A stretch of DNA of 41,887 nucleotides from Bacteroidales bacterium (GTDB taxonomy: Bacteria > Bacteroidota > Bacteroidia > Bacteroidales > VadinHA17): the NCBI GenBank assembly GCA_024762655.1, contig JANTHB010000026.1, forward strand, positions 1-41,887, given 5' to 3'. Made by a program: the position numbers and the translations under genes. Of this stretch, positions 1 to 12,012 are shown in pieces. Below the pieces are notes generated by a model. It was not told where the DNA came from, ran no database searches, and saw nothing but the letters and a program-made list of their open reading frames with translations. How positions within the stretch are numbered: the stretch's first letter is position 1; each line of letters opens with the position of its first letter.

Positions 1-1250
1 TTCCACACATGGGTACAGGATCCCATACAGCAACCCGAACGGTCATTACATCCTTCCCAGGCATAGAAGTTCCCGTCGGAGATGCGAAAACAGGTCTGTG
101 TGCGTAAGGTGCTGGTATTGAATAACGCCGCCTCTTTCACCGCTTCAGGCAGGTCGCTGTTGCAAAAGGTCTGTACGAACTGCACAGTTTTCTTTTCCAG
201 GTCAGGCAAGGCCGGCAATACTTTCCGGATCACATCCCAGGCATCACGATAATGTAACGAATAGTAATTCAGCAGCATGCTGTCCGACCAGGCTCTGCGG
301 TTGGGAAAGTCCCAGGTAAGATAAAAGTCGAGGATGCGTGTTTCCCCGGCCGGAATGGACACCGATGCGGCCAGAGAAGCCATGGGTTTTTTTTCCAGCA
401 AACCCGGGCGTTCTTCCAGCTTGCCGTCCCTGCTGAAATCGTCCCAGAAATCCAGCAGGGAAGTACCCCATCGCCAGGGTTTCCAATGTGTACGGTAACT
501 CACCTGACCGGCGGTGGTCGTTACAGCCATGGTACCCCATTGTTCGGCCCCGCGATCCACTCCTGAAGAGGACATGAAAATCCCTTTCAAGCCCTTCTCC
601 TCCCGGAATTCGTTCCGGTTTCCGATGGCCAGTCCGCTATGCCCATCTTCCCCGATAAAATTCTGCATGGAATAACAAACGGAGGCGTCGGTTTTCTCCC
701 CCGAAACATTTTTCAATACCACCCGGAACACGGCCACAGGGATCCCGCTATTGTCCGGATCGCCGGGGACCATTGGATTAAAAGCCTTGATTGTAACCCG
801 GACAGGTACCGTGGAGTCCCACAGGTGCACCTGTCCGAACGGATATGCCGCATCAAAGGAAGCATGCCGGAAACGGGGCCATCCGTGATTGGTTGCTACC
901 GCACCGGAAGAACCTTCATAGGCAAATAACGGCAGTGGCCCTTCCAGTATTTTGGTTATCTTATCATCCCCTTTCTTAAGGTATACAGCAAAAAAAGGAG
1001 CTGTTCTCTGTATCCCCGGTCCCGGATTATACCCCTTGGCCGGCCGGTTCATGATCTCCCAGTCCTGCAGATTTCCCCTGCCACCGAGCGATACGGTGCC
1101 GGTACCTATCCCTCCTACCGGCAAGGCAATTTTATCCAGGTGATGCTCATCATAATGCTTTAATACCGGCCACTCCGGAACCTGCCCGGATGAAAAAACA
1201 TGGAGCAAACCAGATAACGCAATTACAAATAAGATACGTGATGTTTTCAT
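1..1250 (-). CDS. GH116-family beta-glucosidase / non-lysosomal glucosylceramidase-like protein, N-terminal part (truncated by window edge)
   Basis: Manual minus-strand translation from the ATG at 1250: MKTSRILFVIALSGLLHVFSSGQVPEWPVLKHYDEHHLDKIALPVGGIGTGTVSLGGRGNLQDWEIMNRP...FRISDGNFYAWEGCNDRSGCCMGSCTHVW, open to the window edge. The LPVGGIGTGTVSLGGRG and FYAWEG..D..GCCxGSCTHVW motifs are typical of GH116. Not in the ORF track because there is no in-window stop. Confidence 0.88.
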   Translation of the reverse strand, partial: MKTSRILFVIALSGLLHVFSSGQVPEWPVLKHYDEHHLDKIALPVGGIGTGTVSLGGRGNLQDWEIMNRPAKGYNPGPGIQRTAPFFAVYLKKGDDKITKILEGPLPLFAYEGSSGAVATNHGWPRFRHASFDAAYPFGQVHLWDSTVPVRVTIKAFNPMVPGDPDNSGIPVAVFRVVLKNVSGEKTDASVCYSMQNFIGEDGHSGLAIGNRNEFREEKGLKGIFMSSSGVDRGAEQWGTMAVTTTAGQVSYRTHWKPWRWGTSLLDFWDDFSRDGKLEERPGLLEKKPMASLAASVSIPAGETRILDFYLTWDFPNRRAWSDSMLLNYYSLHYRDAWDVIRKVLPALPDLEKKTVQFVQTFCNSDLPEAVKEAALFNTSTLRTQTCFRISDGNFYAWEGCNDRSGCCMGSCTHVW

Positions 1251-1459
1251 TTCGTAATATTTATCTGAATTATAACATGCAGAATATTAAATTTTTATAC
1301 TTTTCCTAATATGTATCAAAGTACAGATAAAAGTAAATAAGTTCCTGAATTCTCAAAAATTTTAATCTGAAAAATTCAACTATTATCTTTTTGCTTTTGT
1401 CAATTATCTTATATTTAACGTTTCAAAACATCCGGACAAACCTTTTAATAAACCCACGT

Positions 1460-2329
1460 ATGAACTACAAAGAATTTCCATTTTATCAACAAACAACCCT
1501 TGAACTGATTTTCAACAATACCGTTGAGATCTACAGGAAGTTTTTCGGCTGGCTGTTTTTCTACAGTTTCCTGTTTCTGCTGCTGATGAATGTTGTCTCC
1601 GGTTCTTTGATAGCAGACAAATTCCAGAATCTGGAACAGATCGCAGATCATCCCGAACTTATCACCGGGATTTTCAGCAGTCTCGGAAAATATTTATTCG
1701 TTTTCTGGCTCGCGTATTCATTGTATTATCTTTTCCTCCATTATTTCATCATTGTAAAATATCTGGAACCTGAAAAGAGTCACGGCGTCATGTTCATGGA
1801 TATCCTTAAGAAATATTACCTGAAATATCTGATCATCACCCTGCTGGCATCCATGATCATTGGTCTGGGAACCATGATCGGTATTCTGGCATTGATCATC
1901 GGCTCTGTTGTGGCGGCTATCTTCCTGGGCGTATGCCTCGTACCCATCACCCCCATCCTGATTGTGGAAGAAACGGGAATCTGGGAAACGATCAAACGAA
2001 GCTTCCGTCTGGTATTAAAAGATTTCTGGCAGATTCTGGGCTTCCTGATCATTTTTTATCTCATCTATATGCTTTTCTCACTGATTTTCGGAGCCATTGC
2101 CATGGCGCCCTATGCCGGAGGATTTTTCTTCAATATGCTACACCCTGCTGAAGACACTTCTGCCGCAACCAATTCGTTTCAACTTCTAAACCAACCCGTA
2201 TACCTTATCCTTAACTCGCTATTAACCGCACTGATCACACCGCTGGTACCTGTTTTCACCGTTTTGATTTATTTTCATCTTAAATTCAAGGAAGACCAGG
2301 AAGGAACAATAATGATTGAAGAAGGATAA
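1460..2329 (+). CDS. Polytopic integral membrane protein of unknown function
   Basis: ORF 1391..2329; internal ATG at 1460 (MNYKEFPFYQQTTLELIF...) is the more likely start. Several hydrophobic helices. Confidence 0.75.
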   Translation: MNYKEFPFYQQTTLELIFNNTVEIYRKFFGWLFFYSFLFLLLMNVVSGSLIADKFQNLEQIADHPELITGIFSSLGKYLFVFWLAYSLYYLFLHYFIIVKYLEPEKSHGVMFMDILKKYYLKYLIITLLASMIIGLGTMIGILALIIGSVVAAIFLGVCLVPITPILIVEETGIWETIKRSFRLVLKDFWQILGFLIIFYLIYMLFSLIFGAIAMAPYAGGFFFNMLHPAEDTSAATNSFQLLNQPVYLILNSLLTALITPLVPVFTVLIYFHLKFKEDQEGTIMIEEG

Positions 2330-2332
2330 CCG

Positions 2333-5329
2333 ATGAACGAGACGGAAATGCCCAAAAGGAGAATCCGGGATATCCCTTTCAGAGGCGGCCGTCCAGCCTG
2401 GTTATTTCTCTGGTGCTTTACCCTGCTGGTTTTCTCCTGTGAGAGGCCGGGAAAAGATCCGGTAGATTTTGTTGATCCTTTTATCGGCACCGGTTCTGAC
2501 GGCCATACCTTTCCGGGAGCAGTATATCCTTTCGGCATGATACAGCTCTGTCCCGACACCCGGGTAACAGGCGACAACTATGCCACCGGTTATCACTATT
2601 CCGATTCCTCGGTCCTGGGCTTCAGTCATACACGGTACAGCGGTACGGGGAGAGGTGCCGGCGGGGATTTTCTATTCATGCCCATGGCCGGAAAACCGCA
2701 CTGGCAACCAGGCGATGCCGGCAACCCCACCCGCGGATACCGCTCGGCTTTCTCCCATCGTGATGAATACGCTACTCCCGGCTATTACCGCGTGTTGCTG
2801 AAAGACGACCATATCACGGCCGAACTTACCGCCGGAAAGCGGGTAGGGGTACACCGGTACACCTGGCACAACACCGACACGGCCGGCATCCTCCTGGACC
2901 TTACCCACGGCATTCATGACACACCCGACTCGTCGTATTTGAAAATCACAGGCAGAAACCGCATTGAAGGTTTCCGGAAATCACGGGGCGGACTGAGAGA
3001 TTATCAGACGCTTTATTTTGCTGCCGAGTTCTCGGAGCCTTTCGATCAACATACCCTGTGGTTCAACGGAAAAACGTCAGACAGTTTGCTGGCTGCCAGC
3101 GGCAAAGAGGTCAAAGCCTTTTTCCGTTTTTACCATAAGCACAAAACAGAGATAAAGCTGGCTATCTCAAAGGTAAGCATTGCAGGCGCCCGGAACAATC
3201 TGCAGGAAGCCCGGGACCGGAATTTCGATGCCATCCGGAAAGACAGCCGGCAGGCCTGGCAGCGGGAGCTCGGCAAGATTGAGGCAGAGACCCGTAATCC
3301 CACCCTGGATACGCTCTTTTATACCGCCCTCTACCATTGTTGTATCCTGCCATCGCTGGACATGGACCGGGACGGAAGATACCGCAGCACAAATCATAAA
3401 GTTTACAAAGCCAAGGGTTTCTCCGTCTATACCAATTTCTCGCTGTGGGACACCTTCCGCGGATTACATCCTCTGTTTACCCTTATCAACCAAAACAAAA
3501 CGAAAGATTTCCTGAATACTTTCCTCGAAAGATACATCCATGCAGGGAGCCTGCCCGTCTTCGAGTTGTCCGGCAACGATCTGCCTATCATGATCGGTTT
3601 TCATTCTTTGCCGGTCATTGCCGATGCCTGGGCAAAGGGAATACGGGTGAAGGAGGCAAAAAAAATGCTGGAGGGGATGAAATCCCTGGCCACCCTCCCC
3701 TATGGTACCAGAGAGACATACAACATTTTCGGATACCTGCCCTATGAGGATACGTACCAGGCGGTTTCGCGTACCCTCGAATATGCTTATGACGACTGGT
3801 CTGTAGCCAGAGTGGCCAAAGATCTTGATAAGGCAACATACCGTTATTTCAGCCACAGGGCCAATTTTTACAGGAACCTCTATGACCAAAAGAGCGGTTT
3901 TATGCGCCCCAAAGACAGTAATCATCAATGGCTGAAGGATTTTAACCCCATGGATTATACCCGTAATTACACCCAGGGTAACGCCTGGCAATATACGACC
4001 TTTGTGCCCCAGGATATACAGGGACTGATCGGGCTGATGGGCGGAGACCATGCGTTTGAACGCTGGCTTGACCGTTTTTTTACCACCCACAATCCAAAAA
4101 CCTACCAGCGAAGAACTTCCTCCCTGATGATCGGACAGTATTACCATGGCAATGAGCCCTCCCACCATGTGGCTTATCTGTATAATTTTGCCGGCGTACC
4201 CTGGAAAACCCAAAGGATGGTCAGAAAAATCATGAAAACCCAATACCGTACCGGTCCGGCAGGACTGGCCGGCAATGACGATGCAGGGCAGATGTCGGCC
4301 TGGTACGTTCTCAGTGCCATGGGCTTTTATTCCGTCACCCCCGGCATGGATTATTATGTCATCGGATCCCCCTTGCTTGACAAGGCTGTTATTCATCTGG
4401 AAAACGGGAAAGATTTCCGGATTATCGCCCGTAATAATTCTCCGGAAAATGTTTATATTCAGTCGGTCACCCTGAACGGCCTGCCCTATAACAAATCATA
4501 CCTGAAGCACGAGGATATCATGCAGGGGGGTACCATGATCTTCACCATGGGACCGGAACCTGACACGGCGTGGGCCACCGGAAAGACAGACCGGCCTTAT
4601 TCCCTGTCATACAAGGATGCCCCCATGCCCGTCCTCACCGTAAAGGACCGGCACATTTCACCGGACGGGGTGATCACTTTTGATAAGAGATGTTTTGTAA
4701 GTATCTCTTGCGGGGATAAGGATGCCGGTATCTTTTATACCACCGACGGAAGTGAACCGGATAGCACGTCTTTCCCTTACAAGGGGGAATTCGGAATAGA
4801 TACAACCGTTATCGTTAAAGCCAAAGCTTTCAGAGAAGGCTTTTTACCCTCCTATACCTCCTCTCTCACCCTGCGGAAGCTCACCCCGCTGCCCCCCTTG
4901 CCGGTAAAAAATCCGCAACCGGGAGTACGGTATGCTTACCGGGAGGTATGGGTGTGCCGGAGTGTTGATCAGATGTTCCAGTATCCGGTTCTGAAAAAAG
5001 GTATCGTGCCTGTCATCAGCTCCGATATGGGTTTCAGGATGGATGACAAAAACGGAGTGGAATATTCGGGATATATAAAGATACCCCGGGACGGGACCTA
5101 CACTTTTTATCTTTTTTCCGAAGACGGGAGTGTTTTATATATTGATGATATACGACTTATCCTGAACGAAGGCTCCCGTCGCCGGGGCATGATCGCCCTG
5201 CAAACAGGATTTCACAGGATACGGGTCAGGCACGTGCAGGTGGGAGGTACCCCAAAACTCAGACTTTCCTGGACAGGCCCGGGAGCCGGCCTGCAGGAAA
5301 TACCGGCAGAAGCTTATTTTCACGAATAA
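2333..5329 (+). CDS. GH92 family alpha-mannosidase-like lipoprotein with C-terminal CHB_HEX_C-like and PA14 domains
   Basis: 998 aa. GH92-like VDPFIGTGSDGHTFPGAVYPFGMIQLCPDT, GNDDAGQMSAWYVLSAMGFYSVTPG; lipobox LLVFSC; C-terminus GIFYTTDGSEPDSTS (CHB_HEX_C-like) and YSGYIKIPRDGTYTFYLFSEDGSVLYIDD (PA14-like). Confidence 0.93.
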   Translation: MNETEMPKRRIRDIPFRGGRPAWLFLWCFTLLVFSCERPGKDPVDFVDPFIGTGSDGHTFPGAVYPFGMIQLCPDTRVTGDNYATGYHYSDSSVLGFSHTRYSGTGRGAGGDFLFMPMAGKPHWQPGDAGNPTRGYRSAFSHRDEYATPGYYRVLLKDDHITAELTAGKRVGVHRYTWHNTDTAGILLDLTHGIHDTPDSSYLKITGRNRIEGFRKSRGGLRDYQTLYFAAEFSEPFDQHTLWFNGKTSDSLLAASGKEVKAFFRFYHKHKTEIKLAISKVSIAGARNNLQEARDRNFDAIRKDSRQAWQRELGKIEAETRNPTLDTLFYTALYHCCILPSLDMDRDGRYRSTNHKVYKAKGFSVYTNFSLWDTFRGLHPLFTLINQNKTKDFLNTFLERYIHAGSLPVFELSGNDLPIMIGFHSLPVIADAWAKGIRVKEAKKMLEGMKSLATLPYGTRETYNIFGYLPYEDTYQAVSRTLEYAYDDWSVARVAKDLDKATYRYFSHRANFYRNLYDQKSGFMRPKDSNHQWLKDFNPMDYTRNYTQGNAWQYTTFVPQDIQGLIGLMGGDHAFERWLDRFFTTHNPKTYQRRTSSLMIGQYYHGNEPSHHVAYLYNFAGVPWKTQRMVRKIMKTQYRTGPAGLAGNDDAGQMSAWYVLSAMGFYSVTPGMDYYVIGSPLLDKAVIHLENGKDFRIIARNNSPENVYIQSVTLNGLPYNKSYLKHEDIMQGGTMIFTMGPEPDTAWATGKTDRPYSLSYKDAPMPVLTVKDRHISPDGVITFDKRCFVSISCGDKDAGIFYTTDGSEPDSTSFPYKGEFGIDTTVIVKAKAFREGFLPSYTSSLTLRKLTPLPPLPVKNPQPGVRYAYREVWVCRSVDQMFQYPVLKKGIVPVISSDMGFRMDDKNGVEYSGYIKIPRDGTYTFYLFSEDGSVLYIDDIRLILNEGSRRRGMIALQTGFHRIRVRHVQVGGTPKLRLSWTGPGAGLQEIPAEAYFHE

Positions 5330-5413
5330 ATTCCTGTACGTTACAGATGACCTGAAAACAAAAGAGTTCTTTCCCTTTCATCTATTATTACACCAACCCC
5401 GGTGAGGATGTTA

Positions 5414-6592
5414 TTACTGCGCCCTGATCACCAGTTTATCCCTGGACGGGAGTGGCGGGAAGGGGTTGTGCGGTTCGGTCTGGTACCAGTAAGCCACCGA
5501 AGAGAGGTCATCCTGCAGAGGCAGGTAACGTCCTTCGCTCTGCCACCCCAGTGCCTGGATCGTCACTTTCAGATCGTGGTCAAACCGCACAGGATCGGTA
5601 ATATGCCAGCGGTACTCTCCCACCCGGCTCAGGTATTTCCCAAACACACCTTTCACATAATAAAATCCTGAATAAGGAGAAGAGAAAGCGGTGTACTCAT
5701 CACGGCCATTTTCGCCTGCACGCATCTCAAAACCATAAGATCCGTTGAAATAATCCTCTTCACCGGTGCCGCAGATCGTCGGGAACTTTGTATCCCCGTC
5801 GATATAGAATTTCACTTCTCCTTCGCCCCACCATCCGGGACTGAAAGCTCCGTGTGAGAGATAAGTACCCACATACTGCCCCCGGCCTTTGATCCCGTCC
5901 ACAATGGTATAGACCTCCTTATAGGGTAACGGATTCACCCTTCGAAACTGAGCATGGAAATAAGCCACACCCTGCGGTACGCCGGTCTCCTGGTAGTCAA
6001 TCTGATAATACAGGCTTGCGTTTTTATCACTTTTGTTCTCCATGGTAATACGGCATTTTTTGCGAAACGGCATCTGCCAGTAACTGTTAAAACCACTGCG
6101 GGGATTAATACACATGGCCCGTGAAGCTACCAACGGCTCGTTGCCCTGGCCCCACCCCGTCAGGAAGAAGTCTCCCACCGGTACCTCCACGGAAGGATTC
6201 TCCTCATCATCCCAGTAGATGCGTAAGATCATCAGACGGTAGATCCCGGTGGGGGTCATCCAGATATGCCGGATGATCCCGGGACCCTGGATATTGGCCA
6301 GGGTAAAAGTATCTCCCGGCATGATGTTAATATAAGGATTTACTTTCCATCCCTGTCCCAGCTCACGGGCAGCATGGGCAGCATTCCCCTCCTTGAGGGT
6401 AGCCATGCCTCCTTTTCCCTTTTCGCCGGTAAAATTCTCCGGACTCACCGAGCGGGATTTTGCATCGTTCAGACGATACAATGTATTCAGATCATTATGA
6501 ACCATATCTGTATCATTATCATTCTCCTGGGGATGACAGGAGACCAATGCAAGAAATGGCACCAAAACAAAAACAAACAATACATTTTTCAT
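5414..6592 (-). CDS. DUF2961 / GH172 family lipoprotein
   Basis: ORF 5414..6643; likely start at 6592 (MKNVLFVFVLVPFLALVSCHPQ, lipobox). LYRLNDAKSRSVSPENFTGEKGKGGMA, IQGPGIIRHIWMT and GTGEEDYFNGSYGFEM are DUF2961/GH172-like. Confidence 0.87.
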   Translation of the reverse strand: MKNVLFVFVLVPFLALVSCHPQENDNDTDMVHNDLNTLYRLNDAKSRSVSPENFTGEKGKGGMATLKEGNAAHAARELGQGWKVNPYINIMPGDTFTLANIQGPGIIRHIWMTPTGIYRLMILRIYWDDEENPSVEVPVGDFFLTGWGQGNEPLVASRAMCINPRSGFNSYWQMPFRKKCRITMENKSDKNASLYYQIDYQETGVPQGVAYFHAQFRRVNPLPYKEVYTIVDGIKGRGQYVGTYLSHGAFSPGWWGEGEVKFYIDGDTKFPTICGTGEEDYFNGSYGFEMRAGENGRDEYTAFSSPYSGFYYVKGVFGKYLSRVGEYRWHITDPVRFDHDLKVTIQALGWQSEGRYLPLQDDLSSVAYWYQTEPHNPFPPLPSRDKLVIRAQ

Positions 6593-6781
6593 GGTCGTAA
6601 TTTTTTCAGGTTTCCTATAAAAGTACAAAAGATTCTGAAACAAACACTTTCGTCAATATAAATAATTTCTTTTTTATCCAATCCTGTCCCTGCATCAGAA
6701 TTCTCTATGTTTTTTTTTGTTACGCTATTTCTGCGAAAATCTACGTGATCAGCGTGAGAAGTTTCTCGCAGATAAGAAAGG

Positions 6782-6827
6782 AGTCGAAAAGTCTAAAAGT
6801 CCATAAGTCCAAAAGTAATGAGTAACG
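6782..6827. repeat. Degenerate ~8-bp tandem repeat (AGTCnAAA)
   Basis: agtcgaaa-agtctaaa-agtccata-agtccaaaa-agtaatg-agtaacg; AGT(C/A) starts at 6782, 6790, 6798, 6806, then 6814 and 6821. Confidence 0.6.
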
Positions 6828-7042
6828 AGCAGGCAGTTGGCGGGTGCGTAGTAGATGATTTTTTTCGATATCCTTGTTGCGCAATTCCAGGATAATTCTT
6901 CAACCCCTCCCTTGCTCCGCACGCTGTCGCCAAAGCTTCAGCGCAGGCGCCCGAAGCGGCTACGCGAAGGCGAGGCGAGATCTTTTGGATTACAGGAACC
7001 CCTCTATGTGCAGGTGGGGGGGGGTAGTAGCTTATCGTACTG

Positions 7043-7127
7043 ACCACGAAGTGGTCGCAGAGAATAACCCCGGTCCCACCCGGGGTACAAGGAGATCCCT
7101 AGACACAAAACAACCCCGGATGGGGTT
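7043..7127. repeat. Three-hairpin palindromic module, copy 1
   Basis: ACCAC-gaa-GTGGT (7043-7055), gaataa linker, ACCCCGG-tcccac-CCGGGGT (7067-7086), AACCCC-ggat-GGGGTT (7112-7127). Confidence 0.7.
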
Positions 7128-7260
7128 AACGAAATTATATATTATAACTCTTCTCATCATTAATAAAAAAAGAAATTTATTAAAACGAAAGGTTCCCGAA
7201 GCAGTACGTCCTGACTGAACGAAGTAATTGGCCGGTAAAAAGGTTCCTCGTTTTACACAA

Positions 7261-7342
7261 GCCACGAAGTGGCTAAATATGAATAACCACCCCGGTACGG
7301 GGTGGTACACAACGCATTAGACTCCGATCCCCGAAGGGGGTC
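7261..7342. repeat. Three-hairpin palindromic module, copy 2
   Basis: GCCAC-gaa-GTGGC (7261-7273), gaataa linker, CCACCCCG-gta-CGGGGTGG (7287-7305), GATCCCC-gaa-GGGGGTC (7326-7342, one T.G wobble). Same order as copy 1. Confidence 0.7.
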
Positions 7343-7382
7343 AACCGTTCCCCCCGGACCCGGTTATCACCCCACCCCCAAG

Positions 7383-7407
7383 CCCCCTCCCCTGGTGTGG
7401 GAGGGGG
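7383..7407. repeat. GC-rich perfect hairpin CCCCCTCCC-ctggtgt-GGGAGGGGG
   Basis: 9-bp perfect stem with 7-nt loop in the intergenic region. Confidence 0.6.
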
Positions 7408-7606
7408 TGTAAGCAGGAACTTGCAATCGCCAAATTTTCGCAAAAGTAAATCATCAAAAAATGGCAAAAGCAGATCACCATTTTTAAGGGAATACATCTT
7501 TTATTACACCTCCTCCAAAACTTTCTTCAAAAACTTTACCTCTCCTCAGGAGATGTATACATAAATCCCCGGGGATTTTTTCAGATTAAAATATATGTAT
7601 TTAAAT

Positions 7607-7642
7607 AAATATTTAAATATGCCTTTAAATATTTATTTAAAT
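7607..7642. repeat. AT-rich near-palindromic dispersed repeat, copy A
   Basis: AAATATTTAAATATGccTTTAAATATTTATTTAAAT; 33/36 identical to 39955-39990. Confidence 0.5.
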
Positions 7643-7680
7643 GTTCTCCTTCGGTTCAAGGATTTAGTGCAACACAAGAT

Positions 7681-10053
7681 CTATTTCTCTTCCAACCAGA
7701 ATTTGCCTTTCAGTCTGATGTCTTCCGAGCTGCTGCCTATAAACACATCAAATCTTCCCGGTTCGACGGTAAATGCCATGTCTTTTCCGTAAAACCCCAG
7801 GTCGCGGGGTGTAAGGGTAAAAGAGATCCTTTTATTTTCCCCGGGTTGCAGGTGAACCCGTTCAAAACCTCTCAGCACCTTTTCATAGGTAATCACCGAA
7901 CTTACCACATCGTTGATATAAAGTTGCACGATCTCGTCCCCGGGTCTGTTTCCTATATTTTTAACGGTAAAGGAAACCTTTACAGAATTCATCAATCCGG
8001 CTGTATCAGGAGTAACCGTCAGGTTTTTATAGGCGAATGTCGTATAACTCAATCCATAACCAAAGGGAAAAAGGGCTCCCGAAACACGGGATTTTCCGCC
8101 GGAGCGGGCCCCGGGCATAAAAGGAAAGGCATAAGGGATCTGTCCTACCGTTTTAGGGAAGGTAACAGGCAGCTTCCCTCCCGGGTTGTAAATACCGAAC
8201 AACACATCGGCAATGGCTGTTCCGGTATACTCGCCCGGAAACCAGGCTTCCACAATGGCCGGCACATGCTTCGCACACCAGTTGATGGTGAGGGGGCGTC
8301 CGTTCAGCAGCACCAGCACTACCGGCGTTCCCGTACGATAAATCGCCTGAATGAGATCACGCTGTCGTCCGGCCGGATCCAGGGAAGTGCGGGAATGTCC
8401 TTCCGAGCAGATACGGTTATCATCGCCCAGTACCACAATAGCAATATCCGACTTTTTGGCAATCCGGACTGCTTCCCCGATCATTTTTTTCTCGTCTGCT
8501 GACAGTGGAAAAGGGTACAGTTCGCTTTCGGGAAAATGGGGGTCTGTCAGCCTGCATCCCTGGGCATGTAATACCCGGGTTGCAGGGGTTACAGCCCGAC
8601 GAATACCTTCCAGTACGGTTACCAGCTCCGGATTACGCGGACCGTAACGGGAAGATATTTGTTTCACTTCTTCGATATCCGGACCGATCACAGCAATGGT
8701 TTTAAGGGTTTTCTTCAACGGCAGCAATCCGCCTTCATTCTTCAACAGGATCATGGATTCATGCGCTGCCTGCAAAGCCAGTTTTTTATGCTTCTCCGAA
8801 TGAACAAGGGTATCCGCTGCTTTGGGATTATTGACATAAGGATGATCGAACAGCCCCAGTGTGAATTTTACCCGCAGCACCTCGGAAACGCGTTTATCCA
8901 CGGTTTCTTCCGGGAGCTTCCCGTCCCGAATGGCTTTTCGTAAAGGGATAATAAAGACTTCCGGTTTCGTAAAGGTTGTCCGGACATTCAGTCCGGCCTG
9001 AAAAGCCCTCGCAATGGCATCTTCATACGTAGGAGAGACTTTGTGTTTGGTATAGAGATATTCCAGGGCATCGCTGTCAGAAACGACATAGCCTTTAAAC
9101 CCGAATTTTTCGCGCAGGACAGTGGTCAGGAAATAATGGCTGCCTGTAACAGGCACTCCGTTGTAGTCATTATAAGAGCTCATGGTCCCGAGTCCTCCGG
9201 CTTCGGTAAAATCAACCCGGAAGGGTTCCAAAAAGAGCGACCAAACGGCTCGCGGGGTTACATGGGGATCGGTACGTGTCTTTCCGTCACGGCCTCCCAC
9301 CGGCACGCTGTAAACAGCATAATGTTTCGCTGTGGATGCGACTCCCTGACTCTGCAGCCCCAGCACTTCCTGTTTGCCCAATTGAGCAACCAGATAAGGA
9401 TCTTCCCCGTAGGTTTCCACAAAGCGTCCCCATCGCGGATCACGGGCCAGTCCCAGAATCGGCGAATAGACATTGGTGTACCCCAGGGCCCGGCCTTCCC
9501 GGCCGGTCACCTCGCCGATCTTTCGTACCAGCGCTTTGTCCCATGTGCTGGCCACACCGATCTGGGCCGGAAAATAGGTGGCTTTGTAATGACAGATACC
9601 CCGGATGCCTTCATCGGTAAAATCCACAGGAATACCCAGACGCGTTTGTTCAATAAAAAAGTGCTGAACCGTATTGATGGCTTCAGCATGCCGTGAAAAA
9701 GGATAACAGTACTGACTGATTGTCCTGACGCCATTCAGATGCTCATCGATGTTGGCAATCCCTTCTTTCCATATCTCATTTTTCCATTCCGGTGTCGGCA
9801 GCTCGTCTTTCAGCACCTTATTATAGCCGTACAGGGTAGCCAGCTGACAGGTCTTTTCTTCCATGGTCATTTGTGACAGCAAATCCTTAACTCTCTTATC
9901 TATAGGTTGAGATGAATCTTCATACACATCCTTTTTCCCATTTTTATTGAGATCGATCCACCCGTCATGATAAATGTTTTTGTTTTGCTGGGTAAAAGAG
10001 GGGGCAATGTGGATCCCCAGGATCATACACACTAAAAGTACTTGTTTTTTCAT
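7681..10053 (-). CDS. GH3 family beta-glycosidase (beta-glucosidase/xylosidase-like), secreted
   Basis: ORF 7681..10095; likely start 10053 (MKKQVLLVCMILGIHIAPSFTQQ signal). GH3 features: ARDPRWGRFVETYGEDPYLV, KHYAVYSVPVGGRDGKTR, KGYVVSDSDALEYL, C-terminal Fn3-like domain. Confidence 0.94.
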   Translation of the reverse strand: MKKQVLLVCMILGIHIAPSFTQQNKNIYHDGWIDLNKNGKKDVYEDSSQPIDKRVKDLLSQMTMEEKTCQLATLYGYNKVLKDELPTPEWKNEIWKEGIANIDEHLNGVRTISQYCYPFSRHAEAINTVQHFFIEQTRLGIPVDFTDEGIRGICHYKATYFPAQIGVASTWDKALVRKIGEVTGREGRALGYTNVYSPILGLARDPRWGRFVETYGEDPYLVAQLGKQEVLGLQSQGVASTAKHYAVYSVPVGGRDGKTRTDPHVTPRAVWSLFLEPFRVDFTEAGGLGTMSSYNDYNGVPVTGSHYFLTTVLREKFGFKGYVVSDSDALEYLYTKHKVSPTYEDAIARAFQAGLNVRTTFTKPEVFIIPLRKAIRDGKLPEETVDKRVSEVLRVKFTLGLFDHPYVNNPKAADTLVHSEKHKKLALQAAHESMILLKNEGGLLPLKKTLKTIAVIGPDIEEVKQISSRYGPRNPELVTVLEGIRRAVTPATRVLHAQGCRLTDPHFPESELYPFPLSADEKKMIGEAVRIAKKSDIAIVVLGDDNRICSEGHSRTSLDPAGRQRDLIQAIYRTGTPVVLVLLNGRPLTINWCAKHVPAIVEAWFPGEYTGTAIADVLFGIYNPGGKLPVTFPKTVGQIPYAFPFMPGARSGGKSRVSGALFPFGYGLSYTTFAYKNLTVTPDTAGLMNSVKVSFTVKNIGNRPGDEIVQLYINDVVSSVITYEKVLRGFERVHLQPGENKRISFTLTPRDLGFYGKDMAFTVEPGRFDVFIGSSSEDIRLKGKFWLEEK

Positions 10054-10290
10054 GATATATAATTTTTTGTAATACACTCTCTTATTGTGAGACAAGGCAG
10101 ACTTGTCTTTACCACCCCAATGCCCTTATCCCTCAACCTTCATCTGTATCTGCCTCCGCCCTTACGGGATATAACATGTTTATCAATCTCTCCTCACCCA
10201 GGGCTTCGCCCTACGCCAATGTCCACGCCCATGCCTGTCTGCGTGCCTTCAGGATCTGTACATTTTCATTTCTACGCCCCTGTTCGCCCT

Positions 10291-11793
10291 TCATTGACCG
10301 TGGTTCATCATTCCAAACAGTCCCGTATTTCCTTTTTCCCATATCTTCATCAGGCTATCCACCAGTTCCGGCCGGGCAGAGGCGATGTTCCGGTTTTCAT
10401 AAGGATCGGCCTGGTGGTCATACAATTCGGTAACGGGCCGGGCGTTTCTGAAATAATGAGTCAGCCGGTAGCGGGAGGTCCGCATGGAGATGCCCCGGCG
10501 GAAGTAGCTATAGGCTACCTCATCCCAGTGGGGATCATCCGGATGCTTTAATAAAGGGACAAAACTTTTTCCGTCGACAGGAAGCGTATCCCTGATACCG
10601 CATAACTCCATCAAGGTAGGATAAATATCTACCGAGCTGACGATCTTGTCACAGACAGCATTCTGTTTCATGCCCGGCACCCGCATCATAAAAGCGCTGC
10701 GCAGGGCCCATTCGAAGATCGTATGTTTTCCCCACACCCGGTCATCGCCCAGATGCCAGCCATGATCACCCCATAAGATCACGATGGTATTGTCCTCCAG
10801 TCCCTGCCGGTCCAGTTCACCGAGGACTTTTCCCACCTGCGCATCCACATAACTGATGGCAGCAAAATAAGCATGCCGGAGTTTTCGGGCGTAGGCATCC
10901 GAGACCGGATTTTCCAGCGTAGGATGTTCTTCCCCCAGCTTGTATGCGTTGAACTCTCCGCTGTTATGCAGGCTGGCCGGGTTAACGTTCCGGGGAATAT
11001 CAGGCGAAGGGGTTAGAGGCAGCTTGTTTTCGTTATACAGCTTCCAGTATTTTTCGGGAGCATTGAAAGGAAGGTGTGGTTTGAAAAAGCCCACACCCAA
11101 AAAGAAAGGTTGTTTTTTTCCGGCCAGTTCACGAAGCTTTTGGACGGCCAGTTGCGCTGTCAGTCTGTCAGGATAGCCGCTATCCGGCACCTCAGCACAC
11201 TCATAAGGCTTCACCTCATTTTTTCTCGTATTGCGGTTGCTCCCATCGGCATATCCGAAAAAGGCATTCCATCCGGTGCCCCATTTACCGGCATCAAACA
11301 ACATCTCATCCCAACTGTGCGGCAGTTCCAGGGGGGCTCCTTCCGGGTCTCCCAGGTAGGGATACAGCTTCCCGTCAGCGTAGTGACTTATCTTCCCGAT
11401 GCCCACCGTATAATAACCGTGATTACGCAAGCGTTCGATAAATGTCTCGGGTACGTCATGTGTTTTTGCCTCACCGATAAAATGCCGGCAGGCATCGTTG
11501 GACAGGGCCCCCCTGTTCCGTGGCAGAGATCCGGTAAGCATGCTGTAGCGCGAAGCTCCACAGGTAGGCACCGTGACAAATTCATGCCTGAAAAGGATCC
11601 CCTGCCGTGCCAGCCTGTCCATGTTAGGACTCCGGATAAGTGAGTCGCCGTAACAATGCAGTTCGGGCCGCAGGTCATCCACAAAGAAAAACAGTATGTT
11701 GGGCTTCACCGGTTGTTTTGTATGCATATGGCAACTCAGCAATCCTAAAAAAGATACTGAAACAGCAACAAATAATAGCCGGTTTTTATACAT
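10291..11793 (-). CDS. S1-family sulfatase, iduronate-2-sulfatase-like, lipoprotein
   Basis: KPNILFFFVDDLRPELHCYGD, formylglycine-type C-x-A-x-R motif (TCGASRYSMLTGSLPRNRG), LWGDHGWHLGDDRVWGKHT; lipobox LLSC. Confidence 0.92.
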   Translation of the reverse strand: MYKNRLLFVAVSVSFLGLLSCHMHTKQPVKPNILFFFVDDLRPELHCYGDSLIRSPNMDRLARQGILFRHEFVTVPTCGASRYSMLTGSLPRNRGALSNDACRHFIGEAKTHDVPETFIERLRNHGYYTVGIGKISHYADGKLYPYLGDPEGAPLELPHSWDEMLFDAGKWGTGWNAFFGYADGSNRNTRKNEVKPYECAEVPDSGYPDRLTAQLAVQKLRELAGKKQPFFLGVGFFKPHLPFNAPEKYWKLYNENKLPLTPSPDIPRNVNPASLHNSGEFNAYKLGEEHPTLENPVSDAYARKLRHAYFAAISYVDAQVGKVLGELDRQGLEDNTIVILWGDHGWHLGDDRVWGKHTIFEWALRSAFMMRVPGMKQNAVCDKIVSSVDIYPTLMELCGIRDTLPVDGKSFVPLLKHPDDPHWDEVAYSYFRRGISMRTSRYRLTHYFRNARPVTELYDHQADPYENRNIASARPELVDSLMKIWEKGNTGLFGMMNHGQ

Positions 11794-11977
11794 CCTCCTT
11801 TAAACAAATTAAGAATATGAAATCATAGACCAAAATAAAGAAATTTCTTCAACCGAAATTTTTTTATTCCACCTCAACCTAAACTTTTTTTTCAAAAGTT
11901 ATGACGTTTCCTCAATTTACAGTTTGCATCCCGTAAAAAATGCATAATGCAGATGAACCATACTTCTTTTAAAAAAT

Positions 11978-11999
11978 TTTGCGTGTACGTACACGCAAA
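11978..11999. promoter_or_regulatory. 22-bp perfect palindrome TTTGCGTGTACGTACACGCAAA, candidate LacI-family operator
   Basis: Perfect dyad centred on CpG (11988/11989), 52 bp upstream of the LacI-family gene and next to a TAnnTTTG box. Confidence 0.7.
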
Positions 12000-12012
12000 T
12001 AAAAATATGTTG

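Follow-up and report, generated by a model that had tools for sequence, protein, structure and literature searches.

Three-hairpin repeat modules of a Bacteroidales genome as candidate substrates of subclass 1.2 Y1 transposases

A contig of 41,887 nucleotides from a Bacteroidales bacterium of the VadinHA17 lineage (JANTHB010000026.1, assembly GCA_024762655.1), hereafter the window, carries two clusters of three hairpins each between a GH3 gene (7681-10095, minus strand) and a DUF2961 gene (5414-6643, minus strand). What are these modules, and how did they come to lie there? A first-pass annotation made from the sequence had proposed either a structured RNA or a mobile palindromic element resembling repetitive extragenic palindromes (REPs) or miniature inverted-repeat transposable elements (MITEs). 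The mobile-element branch of that proposal is well supported by the comparisons below; the RNA branch found no support. With a probability of about 0.78, each copy is a unit of a non-autonomous mobile DNA repeat similar to REPs and REPINs (REP doublets forming hairpins), with Y1 (HUH-tyrosine) transposases of subclass 1.2 as its cognate enzymes.

Two related modules and their dispersed copies

Both modules lie on the plus strand, at 7042-7127 (copy 1, type 1) and 7260-7342 (copy 2, type 2), as seen by direct reading of the sequence and by covariance-model matches (7043-7125, E 2e-9, and 7261-7340, E 2e-12). The first hairpin, H1, is GACCAC gaa GTGGTC in copy 1 (7042-7056) and GCCAC gaa GTGGC in copy 2 (7261-7273). 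The tag GAATAA follows, read at 7062-7067 and 7281-7286, and then the central hairpin H2 (7067-7086, ACCCCGG tcccac CCGGGGT; 7286-7306, ACCACCCCG gta CGGGGTGGT) and the last hairpin H3 (7112-7127, AACCCC ggat GGGGTT; 7326-7342, GATCCCC gaa GGGGGTC). The hairpins claimed by the first-pass annotation, including the single T.G pair in H3 of copy 2, are therefore genuine in both copies. Its description of two diverged copies of one module held for the shared layout and for the pairing kept where the stems differ, but the copies belong to two related subfamilies rather than to one drifted sequence, and the stem differences separate two repeat families, each adjoining a different transposase gene. 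Likewise, GAATAA (in the form NTAR) ahead of H2 is a general feature, whereas the TACA string listed with it is not.

The hairpins alone do not decide that the modules are real. The covariance model returned exactly two matches in the window, copies 1 and 2, although it contains two modules of the host genome and these matches are thus not fully independent. In a strict three-hairpin scan of the window copy 1 was the sole match, copy 2 being missed because of its T.G pair; ten shuffled windows gave 0 to 2 matches each, a background against which a single copy would carry little weight. A repeat search of 6500-8000 did not detect the copy pair, which is diverged and gapped. What is decisive is how often BLAST finds the repeat in the host genome (52 matches), together with the pairing and double-change statistics of type 2.

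Those 52 matches were found with 7020-7380 as query in the host genome (3.44 Mb, 165 contigs), and 82 with 6640-7690. They form a mosaic in which different copies have different sub-blocks in common. With approximately 50 dispersed copies, the proposed search for further ones came out in favour of a mobile element. Full-length modules could be extracted 37 times (15 of type 1, 22 of type 2). Apart from the window copies, 14 are of type 1 (89-95% identical, one beside the transposase gene at C15) and 21 of type 2 (75-95% identical, including ones beside the transposase genes at C14 and C31).

Covariation was counted in 21 type-2 modules that had been selected by BLAST match, irrespective of structure, and within type 2 only because a joint alignment of both types misregistered H2. 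Standard pairs fill 98.4% of the pair cells. Double changes occupy 16 cells, compared with 3.8 in shuffles and at most one when the partner columns were slid. In H2, both partners change jointly at three pairs (AU/GC, CG/UA, CG/GC), and in H1 this happens once, at one pair; the stems of this family covary, as had been suspected. The H2 double changes set the copies like those at C14 and C31 apart from the remaining type-2 copies, and each may represent a single ancestral event.

Stable hairpins whose pairing is kept would also be expected of structured RNAs such as attenuators, terminators or small RNAs, with mobility incidental, and REPs elsewhere influence transcription termination and mRNA stability (PMC6006769). 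However, no curated covariance model in Rfam matched the region at gathering or permissive thresholds, and the genes neighbouring the modules occur in all four relative orientations. Moreover, comparison with the genomes of relatives shows the copies to be lineage-specific, and they are tied to transposase genes. An RNA function as the explanation is very improbable. The modules are intergenic: among loci long enough to judge, 1/30 overlaps an open reading frame of at least 120 aa, against 67% of random positions.

Modules beside subclass 1.2 transposase genes

The host genome has six Y1_Tnp loci, and the hint to look for transposases of the IS200/IS605 or REP-associated tyrosine transposase (RAYT) type led to Y1 genes that adjoin the modules. 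Type-2-like modules (at C14 two copies of a type-2 relative) lie upstream of the C14 and C31 genes and point at them, and a type-1 module is placed in the same way at C15. Downstream of C14 and C31 lies a different three-hairpin module in inverted orientation. The proteins of C14 and C15 score 75 and 62 bits against Pfam Y1_Tnp (PF01797, cut-off 23) and carry the motifs NHIH...YIKNQQNHH and NHLH...YVKKQWKHH (HuH plus Y-x3-Q-x2-HH). Judged by domain, motif and a length of about 150 aa, these predicted enzymes belong to subclass 1.2 of Quentin et al. NCBIfam places the C14 protein in IS200/IS605 transposase NF033573 (55.5 bits, cut-off 55), and against REP_Tyr_transpos (NF047646) it reaches 19.2 bits, far under the cut-off of 80. 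A profile of 13 subclass 1.2 proteins matches ISHp608 TnpA in PDB (E 1e-15). The Y1 genes of the host are few and divergent, C14 and C31 being the sole close pair. The C14 gene is open. At C15 a stop directly follows the start codon, and the C31 gene has one internal stop. A tandem duplication at C14 covers the upstream module and a 5′ fragment of the transposase gene (L041, 905-1102).

Subclass 1.2 was listed without REPs in the 2018 survey of Quentin et al. (PMC6006769). We examined 93 subclass 1.2 genes, picked by protein sequence alone (relatives, phylum, order and named genomes), for the geometry H1-(~12 nt)-H2-(~22 nt)-H3 within 170 bp of the gene. In a blind count, inward-pointing modules were present upstream of 31/89 and downstream of 29/92 genes, where dinucleotide shuffles expect approximately 0.1 each; outward-pointing modules were found at 7/89 and 13/92, respectively. 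A module lies on at least one side of 42 of the 88 genes with both flanks, and on both sides of 14. In G496 the two modules flanking such a gene have an identical H2. By inspection, the three-hairpin layout extends across Bacteroidota and to Planctomycetaceae/Planctomycetales (L177-L179), a Verrucomicrobia bin (L181) and Phycisphaerales (L187). Modules at many subclass 1.2 genes contradict the published absence of REP-like structures, an absence by which the protein is not defined.

The gaps between hairpins fall into clusters of 10-13 and 19-26 nt, and after trimming most modules measure 78-85 nt. Of 60 modules, 35 have TA[AG] at the end of the spacer, by the 5′ foot of H2, where 4.8 would be expected; the tag reads ATAG in 12, ATAA in 10, TTAG in four, and GTAG and GTAA in three each. 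The triplet stands where REPs have their GTAG guide, a sequence that cleavage in E. coli requires and that is linked to the choice of cleavage site (PMC8266576). Other subclass 1.2 genes (L104, L115, L119, L125, L130) have flanks of two hairpins with an unstructured spacer that keeps TAG or similar approximately 10 nt past the first hairpin.

Could another element, or general recombination, have spread the repeats, with the transposase genes just lying in repeat-rich DNA? The focal region is indeed a mosaic with further dispersed repeats, for example at 7494-7591 and 7586-7642. However, the modules lie on either side of the gene at no more than 170 bp, are oriented towards it and keep the same geometry in distant phyla. 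They are nearly absent at 0.5-1.3 kb from the gene (2 of 1,128 windows there) and beside other Y1 classes. At 28 control loci, four of which turned out to carry the HH motif and the rest other Y1 genes, 2 modules were found in 76 kb of scanned strand, whereas the surroundings of subclass 1.2 genes gave 132 in 283 kb. Passive accumulation of this kind is accordingly improbable.

Movement, exchange and the proposed mechanism

At C74 a 341-bp segment of the host genome that includes a type-2 module is represented by 37 unrelated bp in G002, a genome of the same genus, with flanks 84-86% identical, a nearly clean empty site for this copy. The modules of the focal interval are absent from G002 too, but that interval was rejected as a clean empty site because an unrelated reading frame stands there.

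A second sign of rearrangement lies within the modules. In eight or nine host modules the short H2 is swapped for an imperfect hairpin of approximately 150 nt, with GAATA before it and TACAC after it mostly kept. These long variants (L133-L141; C55, C46, C16, C116, C42, C10, C36 and C9 in the host genome) start with GAGGCTGTCTC and end with GAGACAGCCT. Ordinary insertion into H2 was considered and rejected, since no remnants of H2 remain beside the long hairpin, which means that H2 was replaced. Two swapped modules (L138, L139) have a type-1-like H1 flank and a type-2 H3 context. Exchange at the foot of H2 fits cutting and rejoining there, for which homologous recombination may be an alternative.

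Dispersed modules go with the gene clade: R1, a covariance model built from 26 gene-flanking modules, matched 25/25 genomes with the clade (2-80 matches each) and 5/25 without it (1-4 each). Inverted module pairs without a gene, reminiscent of REPINs, are found at many loci in G402, G308, G478 and G496. Eight loci in G402 have pairs whose H3 ends face each other across about 24 nt, and G496 has similar ones; in G308 and G478 the H1 ends face each other about 15 nt apart. The inverted pairs of G402 (L192-L199) have their outer flanks in common. In several copies there the motif TATAATCAA/TTGATTATA recurs approximately 11-13 nt beyond the apparent end, which is perhaps a target preference.

The pairs of G402 and G496 resemble a module-gene-module cassette minus its gene. 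Together with genes bracketed by modules as inverted ends, and with the assignment of the C14 protein to IS200/IS605 transposases and not to REP_Tyr_transpos, they could mean that the modules are the ends of classical IS200/IS605-like insertion sequences (IS) of subclass 1.2, moving as one unit with the gene, and that dispersed copies are MITEs or solo ends. This is a doubtful reading. Genes are few and divergent and modules many: six Y1 loci stand against 58 host matches to R1 (the very strong covariation among the modules of R1 is biased, as they had been picked for their hairpins). Subclass 1.2 averages 1.7 copies at 36% mean identity, compared with 4.8 copies at 99% for IS200 (Quentin et al., PMC6006769). 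Moreover, host modules are mostly single or same-strand, and the pairs of G308 and G478 point outward.

The best reading by sequence comparison is that subclass 1.2 transposases have these modules as their ends or substrates. It has direct support in their architecture, tag, position and orientation beside the gene, dispersal, intergenic placement, the empty site and the exchange of H2. Binding and cleavage by the enzyme, transposition as a single strand and what H1 and H3 do are inferences. The substrate strand would become single-stranded, for example on the lagging-strand template, and the unit would fold into H1, about 12 nt ending in the guide-like NTAR tag, H2, about 22 nt and H3. The enzyme may bind H2 and its NTAR foot, by analogy with TnpA_REP on a REP with GTAG and IS608 TnpA on its end hairpins. 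Its tyrosine would then nick near the module, and the piece would be joined elsewhere. Modules, often as inverted pairs, would spread in this way between genes, and the gene for the enzyme would itself come to be bracketed by them in inverted orientation.

Several points weigh on the other side. Mobility and enzyme action are read from sequence comparison. About half of the subclass 1.2 genes examined have no module on either side by the strict detector, and some show a two-hairpin arrangement instead. R1 was built largely from gene-bearing genomes, and the two sets of 25 genomes compared with it are unmatched for phylogeny and genome size. The difference at C74 is a 341-bp composite with other repeats and does not fix the ends of the mobile unit or a target rule. 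Finally, given the stops at C15 and C31, the window copies may be relics or have moved in trans.

The focal site, known systems and wider meaning

At the focal site the repeated DNA extends beyond the modules. The spacer between them (7128-7259, plus strand) comprises the tail of a type-1 unit and, from about 7207, the head of a type-2 unit: with the 6640-7690 query many genome matches span 6981 to 7134-7165, and others begin at 7153-7230 and continue through copy 2. A tail at 7343-7407 (plus strand) is repeated along with type-2 modules and ends in a C-rich/G-rich palindrome (7386-7407), position 7407 being the end point of most type-2 matches in that search. On the minus strand, 6902-6981 is probably what remains of the first hairpin of an inverted third module, by comparison with an intact inverted module in L010. 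Its loop holds a GC-rich insert (~6911-6975) that recurs elsewhere in the host genome and in G001 and G004, and is possibly a hairpin-targeting insert. The repeat at 7494-7591 (~95-115 bp) has many copies in the host genome and some in the same-genus genomes G002 and G006. The 57-nt AT-rich palindrome at 7586-7642, with fully complementary arms (7599-7617 and 7624-7642), recurs many times in G002 and G006. Genes in 1-12000 encode GH92, DUF2961, GH3 and sulfatase proteins, a carbohydrate-degradation neighbourhood.

The closest likeness is to REPs, bacterial interspersed mosaic elements (BIMEs) and REPINs with TnpA_REP (RAYT), for example in E. coli and Stenotrophomonas (PMC6006769, PMC8266576). 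There too, intergenic palindromes are dispersed in many copies, some beside a low-copy Y1 gene; a hairpin carries a short guide-like tag at its 5′ foot, and inverted pairs and several families per genome occur. However, a REP unit is one hairpin of 20-40 nt, whereas the modules have three in approximately 81 nt; their tag has the form NTAR (GTAG in a few cases) instead of GT[AG]G, and the C14 enzyme falls outside the RAYT family. The system would function like REPs and REPINs and is filed as a variant. IS200/IS605 elements (IS608, ISDra2) likewise have transposases of the Y1 HUH family and, near their ends, hairpins preceded 5′ by guide tetranucleotides, but differ from the present case, with its three hairpins per side in inverted arrangement, many gene-less copies and low gene copy number; the host genome does not hold gene and ends in several near-identical copies. 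The subclass 2.6 TnpA_REP of Bacteroidetes, with its ‘atypical secondary structures’ (PMC6006769), is similar in host phylum and in having non-canonical flanking structures copied elsewhere in the genome. It differs in enzyme class (Y-I-H-[QN]-N-P), and control genes of that class had almost no three-hairpin modules. Subclass 1.2 itself (PMC6006769) has the same Y-x3-Q-x2-HH signature and size, and here, unlike in the survey, modules. No earlier description of such modules for subclass 1.2 appeared in the open-access literature searched (subscription papers and preprints lay outside the search), and their novelty is provisional.

A bolder and more speculative proposal is that subclass 1.2 enzymes form a separate, very widespread REP-like system in Bacteroidota, Planctomycetes and Verrucomicrobia. 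Its substrate would be the three-hairpin module as single-stranded DNA with a guide tag before H2. H2 would serve as a swappable cassette that the enzyme cuts and rejoins at the foot, and in this way the enzyme would assemble mosaic repeats. A subclass recorded without IS ends or REPs gains a concrete candidate substrate of fixed geometry, which makes it biochemically testable. The modules also offer a likely identity and origin for intergenic hairpin clusters of the GAATAA/GAATAG-CC..GG type in Bacteroidota, which otherwise resemble RNA motifs or assembly-breaking repeats.
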